A DNA stretch of 64,000 nucleotides from Sphingorhabdus sp. EL138 (GTDB taxonomy: Bacteria > Pseudomonadota > Alphaproteobacteria > Sphingomonadales > Sphingomonadaceae), in the NCBI RefSeq assembly GCF_900258045.1, contig NZ_OGVD01000002.1, positions 1 through 64,000 of the forward strand, in the 5' to 3' direction. Every line of letters starts with the position of its first letter. The stretch's first letter is position 1. Shown one piece after another: positions 23,165 to 30,005 of this stretch. The notes under the pieces are model-generated. The model did not search any database. It had not been told where the DNA came from and saw only the letters and a list, made by a program, of their open reading frames with translations. The translations under genes and the position numbers were made by a program.

Positions 23165-23793
23165 ATAGCACGGTCCTTTACAACGCGCTGGGCTGGCTTG
23201 ACCTGTTCGGCATTGCGGTCTTCGCGATATCAGGCGCTCTGGTTGCCGCGCGCAACGGGCAGACCTTGATCACCTTTGCGTTTTTCGCGCTTGTTACCGG
23301 GGTCGGCGGCGGTACCGTGCGCGACTTGCTCATCGGGGCTCCGGTTTTCTGGGTCCAGGACAGCCGTGTGCCGATCCTGTGTCTGGGTATTGCGCTGATT
23401 GTCTGGATCACGCCGGTTCGGATCTGGCGTCCGGCAGCCGTAGACTGGTTCGACGCCATCGGGCTGGCGGCTTATTCCGTCTTCGGTGCGGCCAAGGCGC
23501 TGCAGTTAGGCATTGATCCGGTGCCTGCGGCGATTATGGGGATTATCACCGCAAGCGTCGGCGGCGTCATTCGTGACCTGATTGCCGGGGAACCGTCTAT
23601 CATCATCCGGCCAGAACTTTATGTTACGGCGGGGGCCTTGTCAGCCTTTGCGTTTGTTGGCCTTGCGCAGACTGGCATACCCGGGATCATCGCTGCCTTG
23701 ATCGCTTTTGCTGCAGGTTTTGCCTTGCGCGCTTTGGCTATCGTGAAGGGATTGTCCCTACCGTCCTATCGCGGAGCCGAGGACAGCGAATAG
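23161..23793 (+). CDS. Trimeric intracellular cation channel (TRIC/YicG) family protein
   Basis: The protein is 210 residues from TTG 23161, which overlaps the PepSY stop (TTGA); the frame extends further 5' but only as a shadow inside the PepSY gene. Seven hydrophobic helices occur in two repeats, each with the family motif GxGGGTVRDLL / GxxGGVIRDLI. Bacterial TRIC (UPF0126) proteins form trimeric K+-permeable channels. The 3' end overlaps the convergent sppA gene by 28 bp. The start codon choice is the main uncertainty. Confidence 0.86.
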   Translation: MNSTVLYNALGWLDLFGIAVFAISGALVAARNGQTLITFAFFALVTGVGGGTVRDLLIGAPVFWVQDSRVPILCLGIALIVWITPVRIWRPAAVDWFDAIGLAAYSVFGAAKALQLGIDPVPAAIMGIITASVGGVIRDLIAGEPSIIIRPELYVTAGALSAFAFVGLAQTGIPGIIAALIAFAAGFALRALAIVKGLSLPSYRGAEDSE

Positions 23794-25652
23794 CTCCTGA
23801 GCAGATCGAAAAGGGCAGGTGTCTGACTATGTACTCTGGGGCTAACTCCGCCGCATTCCAGACATAGAGCCTGTACGTCTTCGCGTGCCATCAAACCGCG
23901 AGCGGTCTGTAATGCTTGGGCAAAACTCGCCTTTTGTTGCCGCGCAACCCAACCGATCATGCCAGTGACCGGTTTGGCTCTGGCTTCCCCAAAGGGTGTT
24001 CCTCCAAGCGGAAGCCATTTGAACACGGGTGCCTCCTCAAGATATTTCGCATGATAGTCGCCCTCCTCAAGCCCGGCGCGTTTCGCTGCTTCGGCGAGCG
24101 CTTCTTTCATCCCGCCAAAACTGTCTACCAGTCCCAGTTGCCGAGCTGTGCCGCCGTCCCAGACTCGGCCCTGACCAATAGTATCAACCTCTGCGTTGGT
24201 CTTGCCGCGCGCCTTTCCGACGAGGCTGAGGAAATCCTCATAGCTATGCTCAACTCCCGATTGCAGGACAGTGTTGAGATCTTCGCTGAAACCGCCGACA
24301 AAATCCGGTTCGCCAGATAGGGGAGTCGTCTGCACACCATCAGCGGTAACGCCCCATTTACCCAGGGCTTTTTCAAAACTGGGCAAGACGGCAAAGACAC
24401 CAATGGATCCGGTAATCGTATCCGGCTCGGCCATGATATGATCGCCTGCCGCGGCAATCCAATAGCCGCCGCTGGCTGCAACATCCCCCATGGAGATAAC
24501 AATGGGAATCTCGGCTTTCTTAATGTCGTCAAGTGCTAACCGGATTTCTTCGCTGGCAAAGGCCGATCCTCCAGGCGAGTTTACCCGTACAACGAGTGCC
24601 TTGATCTGCTTTTCTTCGAGCGCCTTGTAAATCTGTTCGGCAATCCGGCCGCTGGCGGCAATGCCGGGTCCAGCGTTGCCGCTGACAATTTCTCCGGCGA
24701 CGGTGATGACACCAATTGCGTCACCGCTGCTGCCTTCGGGATTGGCGGCGACGAAACCGTCATAGTCAATGCTTTTGAAACTGTCCGGAGACGGCTTTGT
24801 GTCTTCCCCAACTTTTTCAGCAACATAGCGACCAAAGGCTACCCGGTCGCCAATTTTATCGACCAGTTTTTGCTCGACTGCGATCTTGGTATAGTCACCT
24901 CCGGCGGTCTTGATGAGGGTCGCCGGATCATTGGCATAGGGCTCAATCACGGCTTGTGGGCGCGCCTTTTTTACTTCCGCCAACCAACTGTCCCACATGA
25001 CGGAATAAAGCGCTGCGGATGCCTCTTTCGCTTCAGGGGACTGGTTGTCGCGCATATAGGGCTCCACCGCGCTCTTATAGGTGCCGACACGGTAGATATT
25101 GGCGGTGATGCCCAGCTGATCGATCAGATTTTTATAGTAAAGCCTGTTACCACCGGGGCCGGCAAAGACAATACCGCCCATCGGGTCCATCCAGATTTCA
25201 TCGGCATGGGCCGCCAGCTGATAACTGTCATCGCTGTAGAAATTGGCATAGGCATAAATTGGTTTTTCGGCCAATTTGACCTGCTCAAGTGCCTCGCTTA
25301 CGGCGTTGAGACTGGTTTGTCCGGCGCCCATGAAAGTGCTCAGGTCAAGAACCACGGCTTTCACCCGGTCATCTTCGGCCGCGGCATCAATCGCGCGAAC
25401 CACATCCCGCAACCGATATTCGCGCATGGTATTCTCATTATTCGTGAACATGGCTGTAAAATCCTGCTGTGCAGGTTGTTCGACAATGACACCATTGAAA
25501 TCGAGGAGTAGTGCGCCGTCATTAATTGCTGCCACATTGGGCCGGACCGAAAGAGCCGCATAAAGGACAGCGAAGAACAGCAACATTGCGATCAGGACCA
25601 AAGCGTCTTTGATCGCTACCAGAAATTTCCAAGCTGCACGGGCAAACTGCAT
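23766..25652 (-). CDS. sppA: Signal peptide peptidase SppA, 67K type
   Basis: The protein is 628 residues from ATG 25652; GGAGA lies 9 bp upstream, favouring it over ATG 25664-25666 at near-zero spacing. It is a membrane-bound serine protease that degrades cleaved signal peptides. A single N-terminal helix (about 17-36) is followed by two tandem S49 domains. Catalytic Lys193 is in GTYKSAVEP and Ser395 in DVAASGGYW, the split dyad of the long SppA type. It faces the TRIC gene with a 28-bp tail overlap and lies downstream of the nrsF terminator. Confidence 0.94.
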   Translation of the reverse strand: MQFARAAWKFLVAIKDALVLIAMLLFFAVLYAALSVRPNVAAINDGALLLDFNGVIVEQPAQQDFTAMFTNNENTMREYRLRDVVRAIDAAAEDDRVKAVVLDLSTFMGAGQTSLNAVSEALEQVKLAEKPIYAYANFYSDDSYQLAAHADEIWMDPMGGIVFAGPGGNRLYYKNLIDQLGITANIYRVGTYKSAVEPYMRDNQSPEAKEASAALYSVMWDSWLAEVKKARPQAVIEPYANDPATLIKTAGGDYTKIAVEQKLVDKIGDRVAFGRYVAEKVGEDTKPSPDSFKSIDYDGFVAANPEGSSGDAIGVITVAGEIVSGNAGPGIAASGRIAEQIYKALEEKQIKALVVRVNSPGGSAFASEEIRLALDDIKKAEIPIVISMGDVAASGGYWIAAAGDHIMAEPDTITGSIGVFAVLPSFEKALGKWGVTADGVQTTPLSGEPDFVGGFSEDLNTVLQSGVEHSYEDFLSLVGKARGKTNAEVDTIGQGRVWDGGTARQLGLVDSFGGMKEALAEAAKRAGLEEGDYHAKYLEEAPVFKWLPLGGTPFGEARAKPVTGMIGWVARQQKASFAQALQTARGLMAREDVQALCLECGGVSPRVHSQTPALFDLLRSYSLSSAPR

Positions 25653-25671
25653 TGTCGTCATTCTCCACAAG

Positions 25672-25704
25672 AAAGGCGGCTGATCATCGCTGACCGCCGC
25701 CTTT
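25672..25704 (-). terminator. Probable terminator of the bufferin/sigF operon
   Basis: AAAGGCGGC and GCCGCCTTT form a 9-bp stem with a 15-nt loop in the 75 bp between the nrsF stop and the sppA start. It is the only stem downstream of nrsF. The U-tract on the minus strand is short, so termination may be partial. Confidence 0.6.
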
Positions 25705-25727
25705 TATATGGTTATACCTGCCGGAAA

Positions 25728-26378
25728 TTACCAGCGGATAAGATGCGGTACGACAAATCTTCCGATCAGAGCACTGACCAGTACCGGCAGGGTGAACCAT
25801 AATCCGATATAGTAAATGTCGTTAAACGGGCAGAAAATATTATAAGCAGCCGCTCCCAGAGCGCCGGATGCGATGCCGACCAGCCAGCCAGCGCGTTCCG
25901 GAGAGGTTGGCGCGCCTTGGCGTAACCAGGTGGTCAGACCGCCGCCAATGACCAAAGCTGACATCATGCTGACCGTCAGGCAGCGCAGACCTTCAGTGGG
26001 TCGCAACGCTTCTACTGGCGGCATGTTGATCGCGCTCATGATAGCTGCTGTCAGCGGGAATAGAGCTGCCGTAACCAGCGCCCAAATCCAACCGCGATTG
26101 AGATTGCCAACACCGGGTCGAGCCATATTGGCTGCTGCAAAAGCCGTTGCAATACCAAGCATCAAGAGCACGCCGCTGCGCAGGAAGAACATCTGATGAG
26201 CCATGCCCATCGCCAGATCACCGCGTACGCCCAAAAAGAAGGCGACACTGGAAGAGACGGCCAACATCAGGATCGCTGTCACCGCCATACCGCCTGAAGG
26301 TTTCAGGGTACGGACCGGTGCAAGATCATCGACCAGGTCATCGATCAGGCTATTTGCTACTTCACTCATTTCATTCAC
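25728..26378 (-). CDS. nrsF: NrsF-family (DUF1109) membrane anti-sigma factor
   Basis: The 216-residue protein has a short cytoplasmic N-terminus (about 1-28) and six hydrophobic helices. It carries the family motif LRxGAPTSPERAG in the fourth/fifth helix region and two conserved-looking cysteines (GLRCLTV and IFCPFND). NrsF in Caulobacter keeps ECF sigma factor SigF inactive at the membrane until metal or oxidative stress; the cysteines are implicated in that sensing. The start overlaps the sigF stop by 8 bp, as expected for a sigma/anti-sigma pair. Confidence 0.9.
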   Translation of the reverse strand: MNEMSEVANSLIDDLVDDLAPVRTLKPSGGMAVTAILMLAVSSSVAFFLGVRGDLAMGMAHQMFFLRSGVLLMLGIATAFAAANMARPGVGNLNRGWIWALVTAALFPLTAAIMSAINMPPVEALRPTEGLRCLTVSMMSALVIGGGLTTWLRQGAPTSPERAGWLVGIASGALGAAAYNIFCPFNDIYYIGLWFTLPVLVSALIGRFVVPHLIRW

Positions 26379-26895
26379 TCTCGATAAGGGCGCTCATTTT
26401 CTTGAGCCCCCGATGGATATTTACTTTCACCAGTGATTCCGACTGGCCGGTTTTTGCCGCGGCTTCGGCAATGCTTAGTCCCTCAATTTTTACCATGGCG
26501 ATAACATCGGCCTGTTTATCAGGGATCATTCCCAATAAACGTTCCAAGCTCACCTTGGCGGTTACGTCCTCATCCTGTGGATCGGCAACCAGTTCTTCAT
26601 TCAGTTCGCCATGCTCGTGGCGATAGATTTTGCGCAGGCCGTCAATCCAGCGATAACGTCCGATGGCGGCGAGCCAGGGCAAGAACGCTTTGGTAGGATC
26701 ATAGCTGGCCCGCTTTTTGTGCAACGAGATCAACGTTTCCTGCACCAGGTCATCAACCTCCGCCGGATTGATCTTGCGCGCATAATAGCGCCGCAGCCAT
26801 TTCTCGCACTCCGTCAGCAGACTGGCATAACATTGTTTGTCGCCGCCCTGCGCCTTGACCATTAAATGGCGCAATGTTTCTTCATTGGCGATCAT
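26371..26895 (-). CDS. sigF: ECF RNA polymerase sigma factor, SigF-like
   Basis: The 174-residue protein has sigma region 2 (about 20-90, with VDDLVQETLISLHKK and WLAAIGRYRWIDGLRK) and region 4 (about 115-170, IPDKQADVIAMVKIEGLSIAEAAAKTGQSESLVKVNIHRGLKKM). It is the partner of NrsF immediately downstream. In Caulobacter SigF recognises GTAACC-N16-CGAA. Two exact matches lie in this operon at 29440-29465 and 27458-27483, which supports both the identity and autoregulation. Confidence 0.92.
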   Translation of the reverse strand: MIANEETLRHLMVKAQGGDKQCYASLLTECEKWLRRYYARKINPAEVDDLVQETLISLHKKRASYDPTKAFLPWLAAIGRYRWIDGLRKIYRHEHGELNEELVADPQDEDVTAKVSLERLLGMIPDKQADVIAMVKIEGLSIAEAAAKTGQSESLVKVNIHRGLKKMSALIESE

Positions 26896-26919
26896 GGCTA
26901 CTCTCCCCGGCTTCCCAGC

Positions 26920-27360
26920 TTAGCCCAGTTTCCCGCCGACCAGCTTGTCGAGGGAGAATAGGCCGCCGCCACGCGTAATCAGGACCAGTGCCAAGGCTAC
27001 CCAGATAATATGCACGGACCACCAAGCTTCAGGATAGACGAAAAACTGGATGACCAAGGTCATGACTAGCAGCCCGGCCGCGCCAAAGCGGGTTGCAAGA
27101 CCCAATACGAGTAGAATCGGGAAGAAATGCTCGGCATAGGTAGCGATCAAACCGGTGATTTCGGGAAAAGGCATGCCATATTCATCACGGAACAGATCGA
27201 CGGTCAGTTCTTTCATCGTCAGAAAACTGCCATCTTCGACCTTTGTGCGGGCAGAGCGCCAGAATATGCCAGCCAGTGCCACGCGGGCAAAGAGGAGCGC
27301 GATCGCTTCTGGAAAAGCGCCGCTTACTAGACCAATTGCTTTTTTAATCAGGTTCATCAT
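26920..27360 (-). CDS. DoxX-family membrane protein
   Basis: The 146-residue four-helix membrane protein has the DoxX signature: ALLFARVALAGIFWRSARTKVE early, then EYGMPFPE and AEHFFPILLVLGLATRFGA. In bufferin operons a DoxX-like protein is a frequent last partner, thought to act in the membrane with the peptide or electron transfer. It is encoded between bufC and sigF, 24 bp ahead of sigF, and 90 bp downstream of an internal SigF-type promoter. Confidence 0.88.
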   Translation of the reverse strand: MMNLIKKAIGLVSGAFPEAIALLFARVALAGIFWRSARTKVEDGSFLTMKELTVDLFRDEYGMPFPEITGLIATYAEHFFPILLVLGLATRFGAAGLLVMTLVIQFFVYPEAWWSVHIIWVALALVLITRGGGLFSLDKLVGGKLG

Positions 27361-27385
27361 TTCGGTTACCCCGTTAAATCATTCA

Positions 27386-28129
27386 TTATATTCTCATTAT
27401 CACGCCGCTTTGGATCAGCTTTATGATCCTCTCCATTGCAGTGTCTTCACCATCCAGTTCGATGGCTGCTGCCAAAAGGTTACCCATAGTTGAAATATTT
27501 GCAATTTTTTCCGCAATATCGTGTTCTAACTGGGTGAGCGGGTGAAATAGAACTTCAGCTTCTGGGCGTGCGACCATCAGTGCATCAGGCGTGCCATCTC
27601 CTAATTCTGCCAGCTCCGGCGAAAGTGCTCCGGTCAGGTTGACCAACCGCATTGCGGGATGCGCGCCGATCTCAAGGCCGAGAAGGCTTTCTTCATCCAG
27701 TGTCGCAATGTCATTAAGCGCAAGCGGCGTAGCCTCGGCGCTATGGTAGCTTTTGATCCACGCCCATTCTATCCGGGCCAGATCCACTTCGGTTTCGCTA
27801 AACCCCTGTTTTGCGAGAAAATCCCCAAAATCTGCGGCGATACTGTTCATGTCACAGGTCAGGATGTGGTCCTGCTCGATATAGTCTCGAGAAATGGCGT
27901 GAAAAGGCTCATGTCCCATATGTTCGTGCAATTTGGGATAGGCGTTTTCAAGCGCGACGAGCCGTGCATGGGAAACAGTATTGGCATGAGCCTTCAGGCC
28001 CAGAAGCGCTCGTTCCGCACTCTCGCTGAATAGGTCATCTGGGAAATGGGTCGGGCCTTTTTGCAGGCAAGCGATGAAGCGAGACTGGCCGTCAGCTAGC
28101 GAGGGCATGCTGTTCATCTTGTAAAACAT
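27386..28129 (-). CDS. bufC: BufC-type partner protein (HvfC/DUF2063 N-terminal domain)
   Basis: The 247-residue protein has an N-terminal helical domain (about 10-100, with LENAYPKLHEHMG and HAISRDYIEQDHI). This is typical of the DUF2063 proteins that dock to MNIO enzymes and present the precursor peptide. A C-terminal alpha/beta domain follows. It overlaps the bufB gene by 38 bp. Start codons at 28129, 28117 and 28108 are all possible; none has a clear ribosome site because the start is inside bufB. The last 75 bp of the gene contain a SigF-type promoter. Confidence 0.88.
   Translation of the reverse strand: MFYKMNSMPSLADGQSRFIACLQKGPTHFPDDLFSESAERALLGLKAHANTVSHARLVALENAYPKLHEHMGHEPFHAISRDYIEQDHILTCDMNSIAADFGDFLAKQGFSETEVDLARIEWAWIKSYHSAEATPLALNDIATLDEESLLGLEIGAHPAMRLVNLTGALSPELAELGDGTPDALMVARPEAEVLFHPLTQLEHDIAEKIANISTMGNLLAAAIELDGEDTAMERIIKLIQSGVIMRI
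27458..27483 (-). promoter_or_regulatory. Internal SigF-type promoter ahead of doxX-sigF-nrsF
   Basis: On the minus strand the sequence reads GTAACC (27483-27478), 16 nt, CGAA (27461-27458). This matches exactly the SigF promoter known from Caulobacter. It lies in the 3' end of bufC and would give a leader of about 90 nt before doxX, allowing separate or boosted autoregulated expression of doxX-sigF-nrsF. Confidence 0.72.
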
Positions 28130-29021
28130 GGCTGTTCAGCACCGTTTCAACTTTTGAAACTTCTGCCATTAACACGCTATATTCGGGAATATCCGTGTCC
28201 CATTCAATCAATGTGGGCTTGGGCCCAGCGCGTTTGATGAAGCGTTCATACAGCCGCCAGGTGATATCGCTGACAATCGAGCCATGATCGTCGATCAGCA
28301 ATGGACCATCGTCATGCTCTTCACGTGCATGGCCAGCAAGATGCATTTCCCCGACAATATCCGGATCAATGGCATCTATATAGGCCTCCATATCCAGCCC
28401 GACATTAGTAGCGGTGACTTCGACATTATTGACATCGAATAGCAGGCCGCAGCCAGACTTTTTGCAAAGGGCCGAGATGAAGTCAGTCTCGCTCATCTCG
28501 TCATCACGGTAGCTGAGATAGCGCGACGGGTTTTCGACCAATATGGGCCGTTTTAGCCGGTCCTGCACCTTGCCAATCTCTGCGGCGAAATGATTGAGTG
28601 CTTCTTCTGTATAGGGAATGGGGAGCAGATCGGGATAGCGATCATGGGCGTTACCGCTCCAGCTCAGATGATCGGAAACCATGGCTGGTTGGTAGCGATT
28701 ACAAAGATCGGCAATTTTATCGAGATCATATTGGTTCAGACCATCAGCTGAGCCAAGCGAAAGTCCGACGCTGTGAAAGCTCAAAGGATAGTCTTCGGCG
28801 ATGGCGGTCAGCCAACGGTGTAGCGGGCCGCCATCACCGAAGTAATTCTGCGGATGTACCTCGACCCATCCGGGTTTTTTTGATCCGACTTCTTCGGACA
28901 ATACATCATTATAATGTACTGACTTCAAACCTATGCCACCTGATGGAGGGAGGGAGTGAGGCACAGGCGTCTTCATAACGGACAGACCAAAATTTGAGGT
29001 TTGAGTAGAGGTAGCATCCAC
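28092..29021 (-). CDS. bufB: MNIO-family peptide-modifying iron enzyme BufB (DUF692)
   Basis: The 309-residue TIM-barrel protein has the metal-ligand pattern of multinuclear non-heme iron oxidative enzymes: GLKSVHYND (His36), EVHPQNYF (Glu54/His56), FHSVG (His83), VSDHLSW (Asp117/His118), ENPSRY (Glu163), DVNN (Asp196-Asn199), GEMHLAGH (Glu225/His227/His231) and DDH near 245. MNIOs in bufferin systems turn Cys of the BufA peptide into thiooxazole for copper binding. It lies 57 bp after bufA1. The GTG start at 29021 lacks a ribosome site; ATG 28976 would match family N-termini better, so the first 15 residues are doubtful. Confidence 0.92.
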   Translation of the reverse strand: MDATSTQTSNFGLSVMKTPVPHSLPPSGGIGLKSVHYNDVLSEEVGSKKPGWVEVHPQNYFGDGGPLHRWLTAIAEDYPLSFHSVGLSLGSADGLNQYDLDKIADLCNRYQPAMVSDHLSWSGNAHDRYPDLLPIPYTEEALNHFAAEIGKVQDRLKRPILVENPSRYLSYRDDEMSETDFISALCKKSGCGLLFDVNNVEVTATNVGLDMEAYIDAIDPDIVGEMHLAGHAREEHDDGPLLIDDHGSIVSDITWRLYERFIKRAGPKPTLIEWDTDIPEYSVLMAEVSKVETVLNSHVLQDEQHALAS

Positions 29022-29078
29022 AAAACTTAGCGTAGAATCACGTTTCGCGCCAGAGGCTTGAACGTGATTGAAGGTGGT

Positions 29079-29375
29079 TTAACCTCTCTGCGGTACTGGC
29101 TTCTTGTTGCCTTTTTTCGCGGTCAGCGAACCACCGGCTTTAACACAAGCGCCCTTGGCGGTGTATTTCCAGGCATTGCCCTGATAGTCGGCGGTTGAAG
29201 TGCCGGCACAGCTTGTGCCTGGTCCTGCGGCACAATCATTCTTGCCCTTCAGCGCGATACCGAAACATTTCTCTTTGGCACCAGCCGCAACGGCAGTGGT
29301 TGGCGAAATCGCAATAGTCGCAGCAGCGGCGAGGGCAGCAGCAGCGGCAGTGGCTTTGATCATGGAGTTGGACAT
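29079..29375 (-). CDS. bufA1: Bufferin-type precursor peptide BufA1 (DUF2282)
   Basis: The protein is 98 residues from ATG 29375 (GAGAGGAAA 5-6 bp upstream); longer readings add unrelated sequence. A Sec signal peptide (core about 8-26, cleavage near AVA-AGA at 30/31) is followed by a core with exactly four cysteines at 37, 48, 56 and 77 ([30 protein letters not shown]). This is the pattern of BufA1 bufferins. These periplasmic peptides are modified by BufB/BufC on Cys residues and sequester copper. A lysine-rich tail ends the protein. It is preceded by an exact SigF-type promoter. Confidence 0.92.
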
Positions 29376-29439
29376 TTGATTTTCCTCTCTTAGAGATTGG
29401 GTAATAGGGGCGAACCTGTCGTGCAGGCTCATCATGTGT

Positions 29440-29465
29440 TTCGGTGGAAGGACCCGGCTGGTTAC
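29440..29465 (-). promoter_or_regulatory. SigF-type promoter of bufA1
   Basis: Minus-strand GTAACC (29465-29460), 16 nt, CGAA (29443-29440) is an exact match to the promoter of Caulobacter SigF. The start of transcription would be near 29433, leaving a leader of about 58 nt before the bufA1 ATG. The cognate sigma factor is encoded in the same operon. Confidence 0.82.
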
Positions 29466-29571
29466 ATCTCTTTTTCCAAAGTCCGGAAAAACTGGTGCGG
29501 GATTTTCCGAAAATGGCTTTTTTCTAAAGGATACAGCTTGCAAAAAGATTTCGAATTTTTTGCGGGAAAGC

Positions 29572-29599
29572 CTTGACGATCGCTCAGAATAGCCCATAT
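29572..29599 (+). promoter_or_regulatory. RpoH-like promoter of groESL
   Basis: CTTGAC at 29572-29577, a 15-nt spacer and CCCATAT at 29593-29599 fit the sigma-32 pattern (CTTGAA, 13-15 nt, CCCCATNT) known in alphaproteobacteria. The predicted start of transcription falls at the CIRCE element. Confidence 0.7.
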
Positions 29600-29607
29600 G
29601 AGCGTCG

Positions 29608-29634
29608 TTAGCACTCGACTCAAGGGAGTGCTAA
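29608..29634 (+). promoter_or_regulatory. CIRCE operator (HrcA binding site)
   Basis: TTAGCACTC, a 9-nt spacer and GAGTGCTAA form a perfect inverted repeat identical to the CIRCE consensus. HrcA binds it to repress groESL outside heat shock. It overlaps the predicted transcription start downstream of the RpoH-like promoter, so groESL has dual control. Confidence 0.96.
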
Positions 29635-29717
29635 TCCTCCATTTGAATATATCTTGATGGCCCGGGCTAAAGGAGCGGGGCCGCAGGAAAGTAAATTTGG
29701 ACAAGAAAGGCAAACTT

Positions 29718-30005
29718 ATGAAATTTCGTCCACTACATGATCGTGTGCTGGTTAGCCGCGTAGACGCGGACACGAAAACCGCTGGCGGCATCATCATTCC
29801 TGACAGCGCTCAGGAAAAACCATCCGAAGGTAAAGTTGTTGCTGTTGGCAATGGTTTGAAAGACGACAATGGCAAGTCAACACCGCTCGACGTCAAAAAA
29901 GGCGACAAGATCCTGTTCGGCAAATGGTCCGGCACGGAAGTCACCGTTGAAGGCAAAGACCTGATCATCATGAAAGAAAGCGATATCCTCGGTATCATCG
30001 AGTAG
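29718..30005 (+). CDS. groES: Co-chaperonin GroES
   Basis: The protein is 95 residues from ATG 29718 (AAGAAAGG about 8 bp upstream), starting [12 protein letters not shown] as in the family. The mobile loop (about 16-32, [16 protein letters not shown] region) and the C-terminal [11 protein letters not shown] are present. It caps the GroEL folding chamber. It is followed by groL after 50 bp. Confidence 0.98.

Follow-up and report, generated by a model that had tools for sequence, protein, structure and literature searches.

The closest described counterpart of the operon analysed here is found in the SigF regulon of Caulobacter crescentus, where CC3254-3257 encode a DUF2282 protein, an MNIO enzyme, a DUF2063 protein and a DoxX protein, sigF is CC3253 and nrsF is CC3252 (PMC3511200, PMC8224329). 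The promoter motif of that regulon, GTAACC-N16-CGAA, was tested by lacZ fusions and 5' rapid amplification of cDNA ends, and has been linked both to the start at position -61 of the bufA1 homologue, CC3254, and to the promoter of sigF itself (PMC3511200). Copper induces the Caulobacter regulon (PMC8224329), and chromium stress acting on the cysteines of NrsF has also been argued (PMC3511200). Here we describe the same genes in a 64,000-nucleotide (nt) stretch of contig NZ_OGVD01000002.1 from Sphingorhabdus sp. EL138 (the window; coordinates are positions in it). Six genes lie on the minus strand in the order bufA1-bufB-bufC-doxX-sigF-nrsF, and they very probably form a Buf1 bufferin operon controlled by SigF/NrsF through two SigF promoters, one ahead of bufA1 (P1) and one within the coding sequence of bufC (P2).

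The likeness to Caulobacter extends to the promoter motif and to an NrsF with two key cysteines (C131 and C181 in Caulobacter), and the Caulobacter regulon also takes in a second DUF2282-MNIO-DUF2063 operon and an msrPQ-type operon. In Caulobacter, however, sigF-nrsF stands apart from the bufferin genes as a unit preceded by a promoter of its own, whereas in EL138 the pair is operon-terminal with a promoter-like site inside bufC; the predicted sites in EL138 also include those of msrA and msrB. In Cupriavidus metallidurans, gigPABT with rpoQ-rsqA is likewise a bufABCD-type operon beside genes for an extracytoplasmic function (ECF) sigma factor and a membrane anti-sigma factor, and is copper-induced, but the sigma pair is divergent and no promoter had been identified upstream of gig (PMC10304878). 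The ECF16 systems BcrS/AbcS (PMC8315932) and Sinorhizobium meliloti RpoE7 (PMC6180224) share the ECF16 consensus and an NrsF-type anti-sigma factor with two cysteines, and methionine sulfoxide reductase genes are shared targets there (PMC8315932), as predicted here. They differ in their signal, given as hypochlorous acid or as unknown, and the consulted portions of these papers describe no promoter embedded in a bufferin operon (PMC8315932, PMC6180224).

The survey of PMC12452194, in which the word 'promoter' does not occur, describes Buf1 clusters that include genes for a sigma factor and for NrsF. The clusters with SigF/NrsF and the promoter motif are both already known; in the open-licence literature we came across no description of a SigF promoter within bufC. 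The EL138 locus has the features of a Buf1 cluster, namely a DUF2282 precursor with four cysteines (Cys 37, 48, 56 and 77), an adjacent MNIO maturase, a DUF2063 partner and DoxX. At the level of sequence it also has those of an ECF16 SigF/NrsF system: a sigma factor beside NrsF, the motif before its own operon, and two cysteines in NrsF, Cys130 and Cys180 only, as numbered in the EL138 protein itself.

The two sites and their conservation

GTAACC-N16-CGAA has exactly two matches in the window, both on the minus strand. P1 ends 64 nt ahead of the bufA1 start, and P2 spans bufC codons 216-224 (GGT AAC CTT ... ATC GAA), 97 nt upstream of doxX. A preliminary description of this DNA had reported both copies and named the motif as the Caulobacter SigF promoter, which agrees with PMC3511200; the ECF16 consensus reads (T/C)GTAAC-N17-CGAA (PMC8315932). 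That description had further argued that two such matches would hardly arise by chance. Shuffling is in line with the argument (mean 0.02 matches in 100 shuffles of the window, none with two), but exact matches number 20 in the genome as a whole, compared with 12 for the reversed pattern, or some 0.35 in every 64 kb, so that two in one window are not very rare. The shuffle estimate is too optimistic, the count alone does not settle the question, and the main weight falls on conservation.

To follow the sites in relatives, 147 genomes were searched for NrsF; 62 places were listed and 58 loci fetched, the others being the window's own copy, G008, G062 and one of two places in G042. Same-genus bufC is represented by 28 operons (the window and L042-L068; the contigs of L069 and L099 end without bufC). 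P2 is exact in all 28; for P1 the figures are 24 exact, three with a single mismatch and one cut off. Of the 29 loci obtained from beyond the genus, three (L070, L077 and L079) showed the complete gene order by tblastn, and all three have both sites exact.

A wider set was obtained by searching contigs with two peptide patterns from parts of BufC clear of the motif. This confirmed 103 stretches, and all order-wide counts rest on the best 80 of them (L149-L228), whose same-genus members overlap the genus set. Going by the genera named, 74 of the 80 belong to Sphingomonadales, and six are labelled only Alphaproteobacteria, Proteobacteria or Pseudomonadota. Identity to the window's BufC drops to 33% across these loci, yet P2 is exact in 77, all of which share one alignment column. 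For P1, 76 loci are usable, of which 68 carry it exactly and eight with a single mismatch; of the remaining four, three have no bufA in the stretch and one is cut. The median distances are 99 nt from the end of P2 to doxX and 59 nt from the end of P1 to bufA. It had been stated beforehand that relatives retaining the operon but not the motifs would tell against the two promoters; both sites came through this comparison.

Constraint on the DNA of the internal site

An invariant residue (Met and Trp excluded) occupies 75 bufC columns of the genus set, and six of these columns use a single codon throughout. Four of the six are the motif codons GGT, AAC, CTT and GAA, and a fifth, GCT at codon 12, falls in the overlap of bufC with bufB. 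When synonymous codons were shuffled within each of the 80 genes of the wider set, P2 was expected in 2.8 loci, as against 77 observed; with one representative per 50% identity, the expectation is 0.47 and the observation 14 of 15. AAC is used in 78 and GAA in 79 of the 80 loci. The first motif codon is NGT in 78 despite encoding Gly, Cys, Arg or Ser, and the codon preceding GAA is NNC in 78, although ten different residues occur at that position.

Changes were also counted by parsimony on a bufC tree from which the motif codons had been left out. The bases of GTAACC changed 0, 2, 1, 1, 1 and 0 times and those of CGAA 2, 0, 0 and 1 times, in comparison with a median of 25 changes at third codon positions (n=237); apart from the motif, only two columns, occupied almost throughout by Trp, have a third position with two changes or fewer. 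Within the spacer, 14 of the 16 bases changed 9-33 times; the remaining two, which are second positions of Leu/Ile/Phe codons, changed 0-1 times. The constraint at the DNA level is centred on the -35 and -10 letters of P2. Since synonymous codons are frozen, the promoter embedded in bufC appears to be selected at the DNA level.

BufC homologues from outside the order serve as a control. A class-wide search of 385 genomes matched 96, all labelled 'same class' except the own genome, and the best-scoring 29 besides the own were examined; they probe constraint on the protein, as distinct from operons with SigF elsewhere. bufA-bufB-bufC-doxX stand in order in 21 of these loci, and the rest are cut or miss a recognised gene. 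None of the 29 has sigF downstream in the stretch examined, which reaches 30 to 1494 nt beyond bufC; L231 holds a piece of a divergent sigF. The motif is absent from all 29 bufC homologues even with one mismatch allowed, and the exact motif occurs nowhere in the 29 stretches, so that these operons look free of SigF control through GTAACC-N16-CGAA. In the aligned motif columns, Asn is found in none and Glu in four of the 29, the distant C-termini aligning less surely. These residues suggest that the promoter has shaped the BufC protein rather than the reverse.

The preliminary description proposed that an internal promoter upstream of doxX-sigF-nrsF would let the sigma factor rise apart from the peptide. 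Conservation and the frozen codons support the promoter, but it is not a switch for sigF alone: L170, L171, L172 and L175 (Sphingomonas ursincola, two Blastomonas and one Sphingomonas strain) keep bufABC-doxX and an exact P2 with no sigF-nrsF behind doxX. These four loci may represent one event; their genomes carry an NrsF gene at a different place, close to another MNIO gene and to further exact sites. As for the remaining loci, 72 have sigF behind doxX, L214 and L225 also carry sigF, and in L181 and L222 sigF is not in the stretch since the contig ends. Because P2 is retained before doxX without a local sigF-nrsF, it is best named the doxX(-sigF-nrsF) promoter.

Proposed regulation and competing explanations

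We propose that periplasmic metal or thiol stress would act on the cysteine pair of NrsF and thereby free SigF. Freed SigF would fire P1, yielding bufA1-bufB-bufC (precursor, maturase and partner) together with read-through. It would presumably also transcribe from P2, yielding doxX-sigF-nrsF, i.e. DoxX, more SigF and more NrsF. P2 would thus place the sigma factor and its brake under positive feedback, and would make the supply of DoxX independent of read-through across bufABC. Copper is a plausible signal because of the Caulobacter data (PMC8224329), and BufA1 is predicted to be modified, with cysteines converted to thiooxazole as expected of a Buf1 bufferin, and to bind copper.

Several observations weigh against this account. 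P2 has one mismatch in L204 and is missing, even allowing one mismatch, from L223 and L224, both of which have sigF downstream; P2 is therefore not indispensable. The 80 loci have the highest scores among 103 and are related by descent, and the sixth frozen codon, AAA at codon 208, lies outside both the motif and the bufB overlap and is unexplained. In two sister genomes (G022 and G010) the motif is no commoner than the reversed control (13 vs 13 and 12 vs 10). We found no transcription data for the organism of the window. In Caulobacter, SigF is reported not to be strongly autoregulated under chromium, and the sigF promoter is not exclusively SigF-dependent (PMC3511200).

The last point is also consistent with an internal element that carries real DNA or RNA information without being a SigF promoter, for instance a signal for translational coupling of doxX or the site of another sigma factor or regulator, and so is the retention of the element where sigF-nrsF is absent. 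However, its most constrained letters are those of the known SigF -35 and -10, separated by a spacer that is largely free to change, the same element precedes bufA1 and other genes, and NrsF is encoded at another location in the four genomes that lack sigF here. We consider such an element unlikely. Alternatively, P2 could be a passive relic: a real promoter that once served a separate doxX-sigF unit and now adds nothing to what read-through from P1 provides. The motif stands directly before sigF-nrsF in L073, L082, L084 and L087, and before bufA-doxX-sigF-nrsF in L071 and L074, as such a history would have it. A redundant site would decay, whereas P2 is kept at least as well as P1, and we find a relic quite improbable; as a special case of the SigF-promoter reading, its probability overlaps with that of the latter.

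Constraint on the BufC protein (Gly-Asn-Leu-Leu...Glu) combined with codon bias, with a coincidental match to the SigF motif, would account for the residues themselves, since 78 of the 80 loci have Asn, 79 have Leu and all of them have Glu. It does not account for codons that are frozen or for third bases that stay fixed despite residue change, and the synonymous shuffling, the tree counts and the 29 outside homologues, the less certain alignment of their C-termini notwithstanding, lead us to reject it as the cause; we regard its chance of being right as very slight.

Returning to two SigF promoters, a bolder version is possible, although we hold it rather doubtful. An ECF-sigma promoter long resident in the bufC of Sphingomonadales would dictate codons and even residues (Asn and Glu). 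As P2 sits within a SigF-activated unit, polymerase from P1 would cross it, and the embedding itself may be regulatory: strong transcription of bufABC could damp P2, turning the feedback on sigF into a self-limiting pulse.

Genes, surroundings and the wider predicted regulon

The coordinates are collected in Table 1. The gene order given in the preliminary description is borne out by the reading frames and by Pfam matches above cut-off for all six proteins (DUF2282, MbnB_TglH_ChrH, DUF2063, DoxX, Sigma70_r2 with r4_2, and NrsF). The N-terminus of BufA1 is signal-peptide-like, as judged by eye, and its sole match in NCBIfam is BufA2, under the cut-off of that family. BufB scores 345.9 bits against NCBIfam MNIO_BufB (cut-off 310), which identifies it as a bufferin maturase. 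The 5' end of bufC overlaps bufB and its 3' end contains P2. The NCBIfam equivalogs HvfC (BufC) and HvfX (DoxX) were matched under cut-off, and BufC has no match among solved structures by sequence at E 0.001. The protein is the genome's single NrsF match at E 1e-8 and reaches 79.4 bits against the NCBIfam equivalog AntiSigF_NrsF, below its cut-off of 300. In the draft genome of L062, the nrsF reading frame is in two pieces, owing to a frameshift or an assembly fault.

Table 1. Genes, predicted promoters and neighbouring features of the operon in the window
Feature	Position	Strand	Description
P1	29440-29465	minus	predicted SigF-type promoter; -35 GTAACC 29465-29460, -10 CGAA 29443-29440
bufA1	29079-29375	minus	DUF2282 (Buf1) bufferin precursor, 98 amino acids; PF10048, 7.1e-22
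bufB	28092-28976	minus	MNIO (MbnB_TglH_ChrH); PF05114, 8.3e-96
bufC	27386-28129	minus	DUF2063 partner protein; PF09836, 5.6e-10
P2	27458-27483	minus	predicted SigF-type promoter in bufC coding sequence; exact GTAACC-N16-CGAA
doxX (bufD-like)	26920-27360	minus	membrane protein; PF07681, 2.3e-16
sigF	26371-26895	minus	ECF sigma factor; Pfam Sigma70_r2 and r4_2
nrsF	25728-26369	minus	membrane anti-sigma factor; PF06532 (DUF1109), 8.2e-43
Hairpin 3' of nrsF	25672-25704 (limits approximate)	minus	possible operon end; from the fold of 25660-25740
S49 peptidase gene	23766-25652	minus	next gene beyond the nrsF hairpin

The fold behind nrsF has -39.2 kcal/mol and a z of -5.93. A simple terminator scan found six candidates against 4.5 in shuffles, the nrsF hairpin not being among them. 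In 25500-29800, sigma-70-type promoters gave two matches, both on the plus strand and facing away from the operon, with a shuffle mean of 3.9. A hairpin between bufA1 and bufB that would set the ratio of precursor to enzyme was dropped, as its fold is no more stable than those of shuffled sequences (z -0.50). The S49 peptidase gene lies behind nrsF in the genus, and directly behind doxX in the four loci without sigF-nrsF. On the other side, an inverted repeat, TTAGCACTC-N9-GAGTGCTAA at 29608-29634, stands ahead of the divergent groES-groEL, and we take it to be the HrcA operator CIRCE.

Beyond the operon, the genome contains 18 other exact sites. Fourteen of these end at most 60 nt from the start of an open reading frame of at least 90 amino acids, in comparison with two of the 12 reversed-pattern matches, and ten lie outside any open reading frame of at least 150 amino acids, in comparison with none of the 12. 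Fisher p is about 0.002 for both comparisons, with mechanical thresholds that were chosen after the list was seen. Downstream proteins were scanned in ten of 16 cases: MsrA, MsrB, a DUF1223 protein, a redoxin lipoprotein, a peroxiredoxin-like protein, cytochrome b561, a methyltransferase, a DUF2147 protein, a second, lipoprotein-like DUF2282 protein and a pyridine nucleotide-disulphide oxidoreductase, which we read as glutathione reductase. The MsrA site, 212 nt from the start, is more distant than the others. Because the motif as a whole is no more frequent than the control in the two sister genomes, only shared targets carry weight, and exact sites in both accompany the genes for MsrA, MsrB, the DUF1223 protein, the redoxin lipoprotein and the lipoprotein-like DUF2282 protein. 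From these predicted sites, SigF probably runs a wider periplasmic repair regulon in this organism.

A second site inside a gene lies at the 3' end of what we read as pgi (glucose-6-phosphate isomerase), ahead of a glutathione-reductase-like gene (L007, G000:C1:894201-894226); in 29 same-genus loci (L265-L293) it is exact in 23, has one mismatch in four and is absent from two. A further exact site is located between sigF and nrsF of Blastomonas sp. AAP53 (L263, minus strand, 2284-2259). The second DUF2282 gene stands alone (G000:C1:428520-428669; L004, L100), with a lipoprotein-like start (LSAC) and its own exact SigF site. A third (G000:C4:22173-22313; L101) has no MNIO gene nearby; both strands of the 9 kb examined around it lack an exact SigF site, and the strand of the gene also lacks any with one mismatch. 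Since BufB is the genome's single match to MbnB_TglH_ChrH, one MNIO maturase may be shared by several DUF2282 precursors.

Promoters within genes are often dismissed as noise, and P2 is kept in most of the loci examined from one order. The constraint, resolved base by base, outlines the -35 and -10 boxes, and makes this a clean case of DNA that codes for a protein and very probably also serves as a regulatory switch. P2 offers a sharp test of the balance among a copper-buffering system based on a ribosomally synthesised and post-translationally modified peptide, its DoxX partner and the sigma factor. The findings also suggest that bufferins of sphingomonads are part of a broader SigF programme for repairing methionine and thiols in the periplasm.

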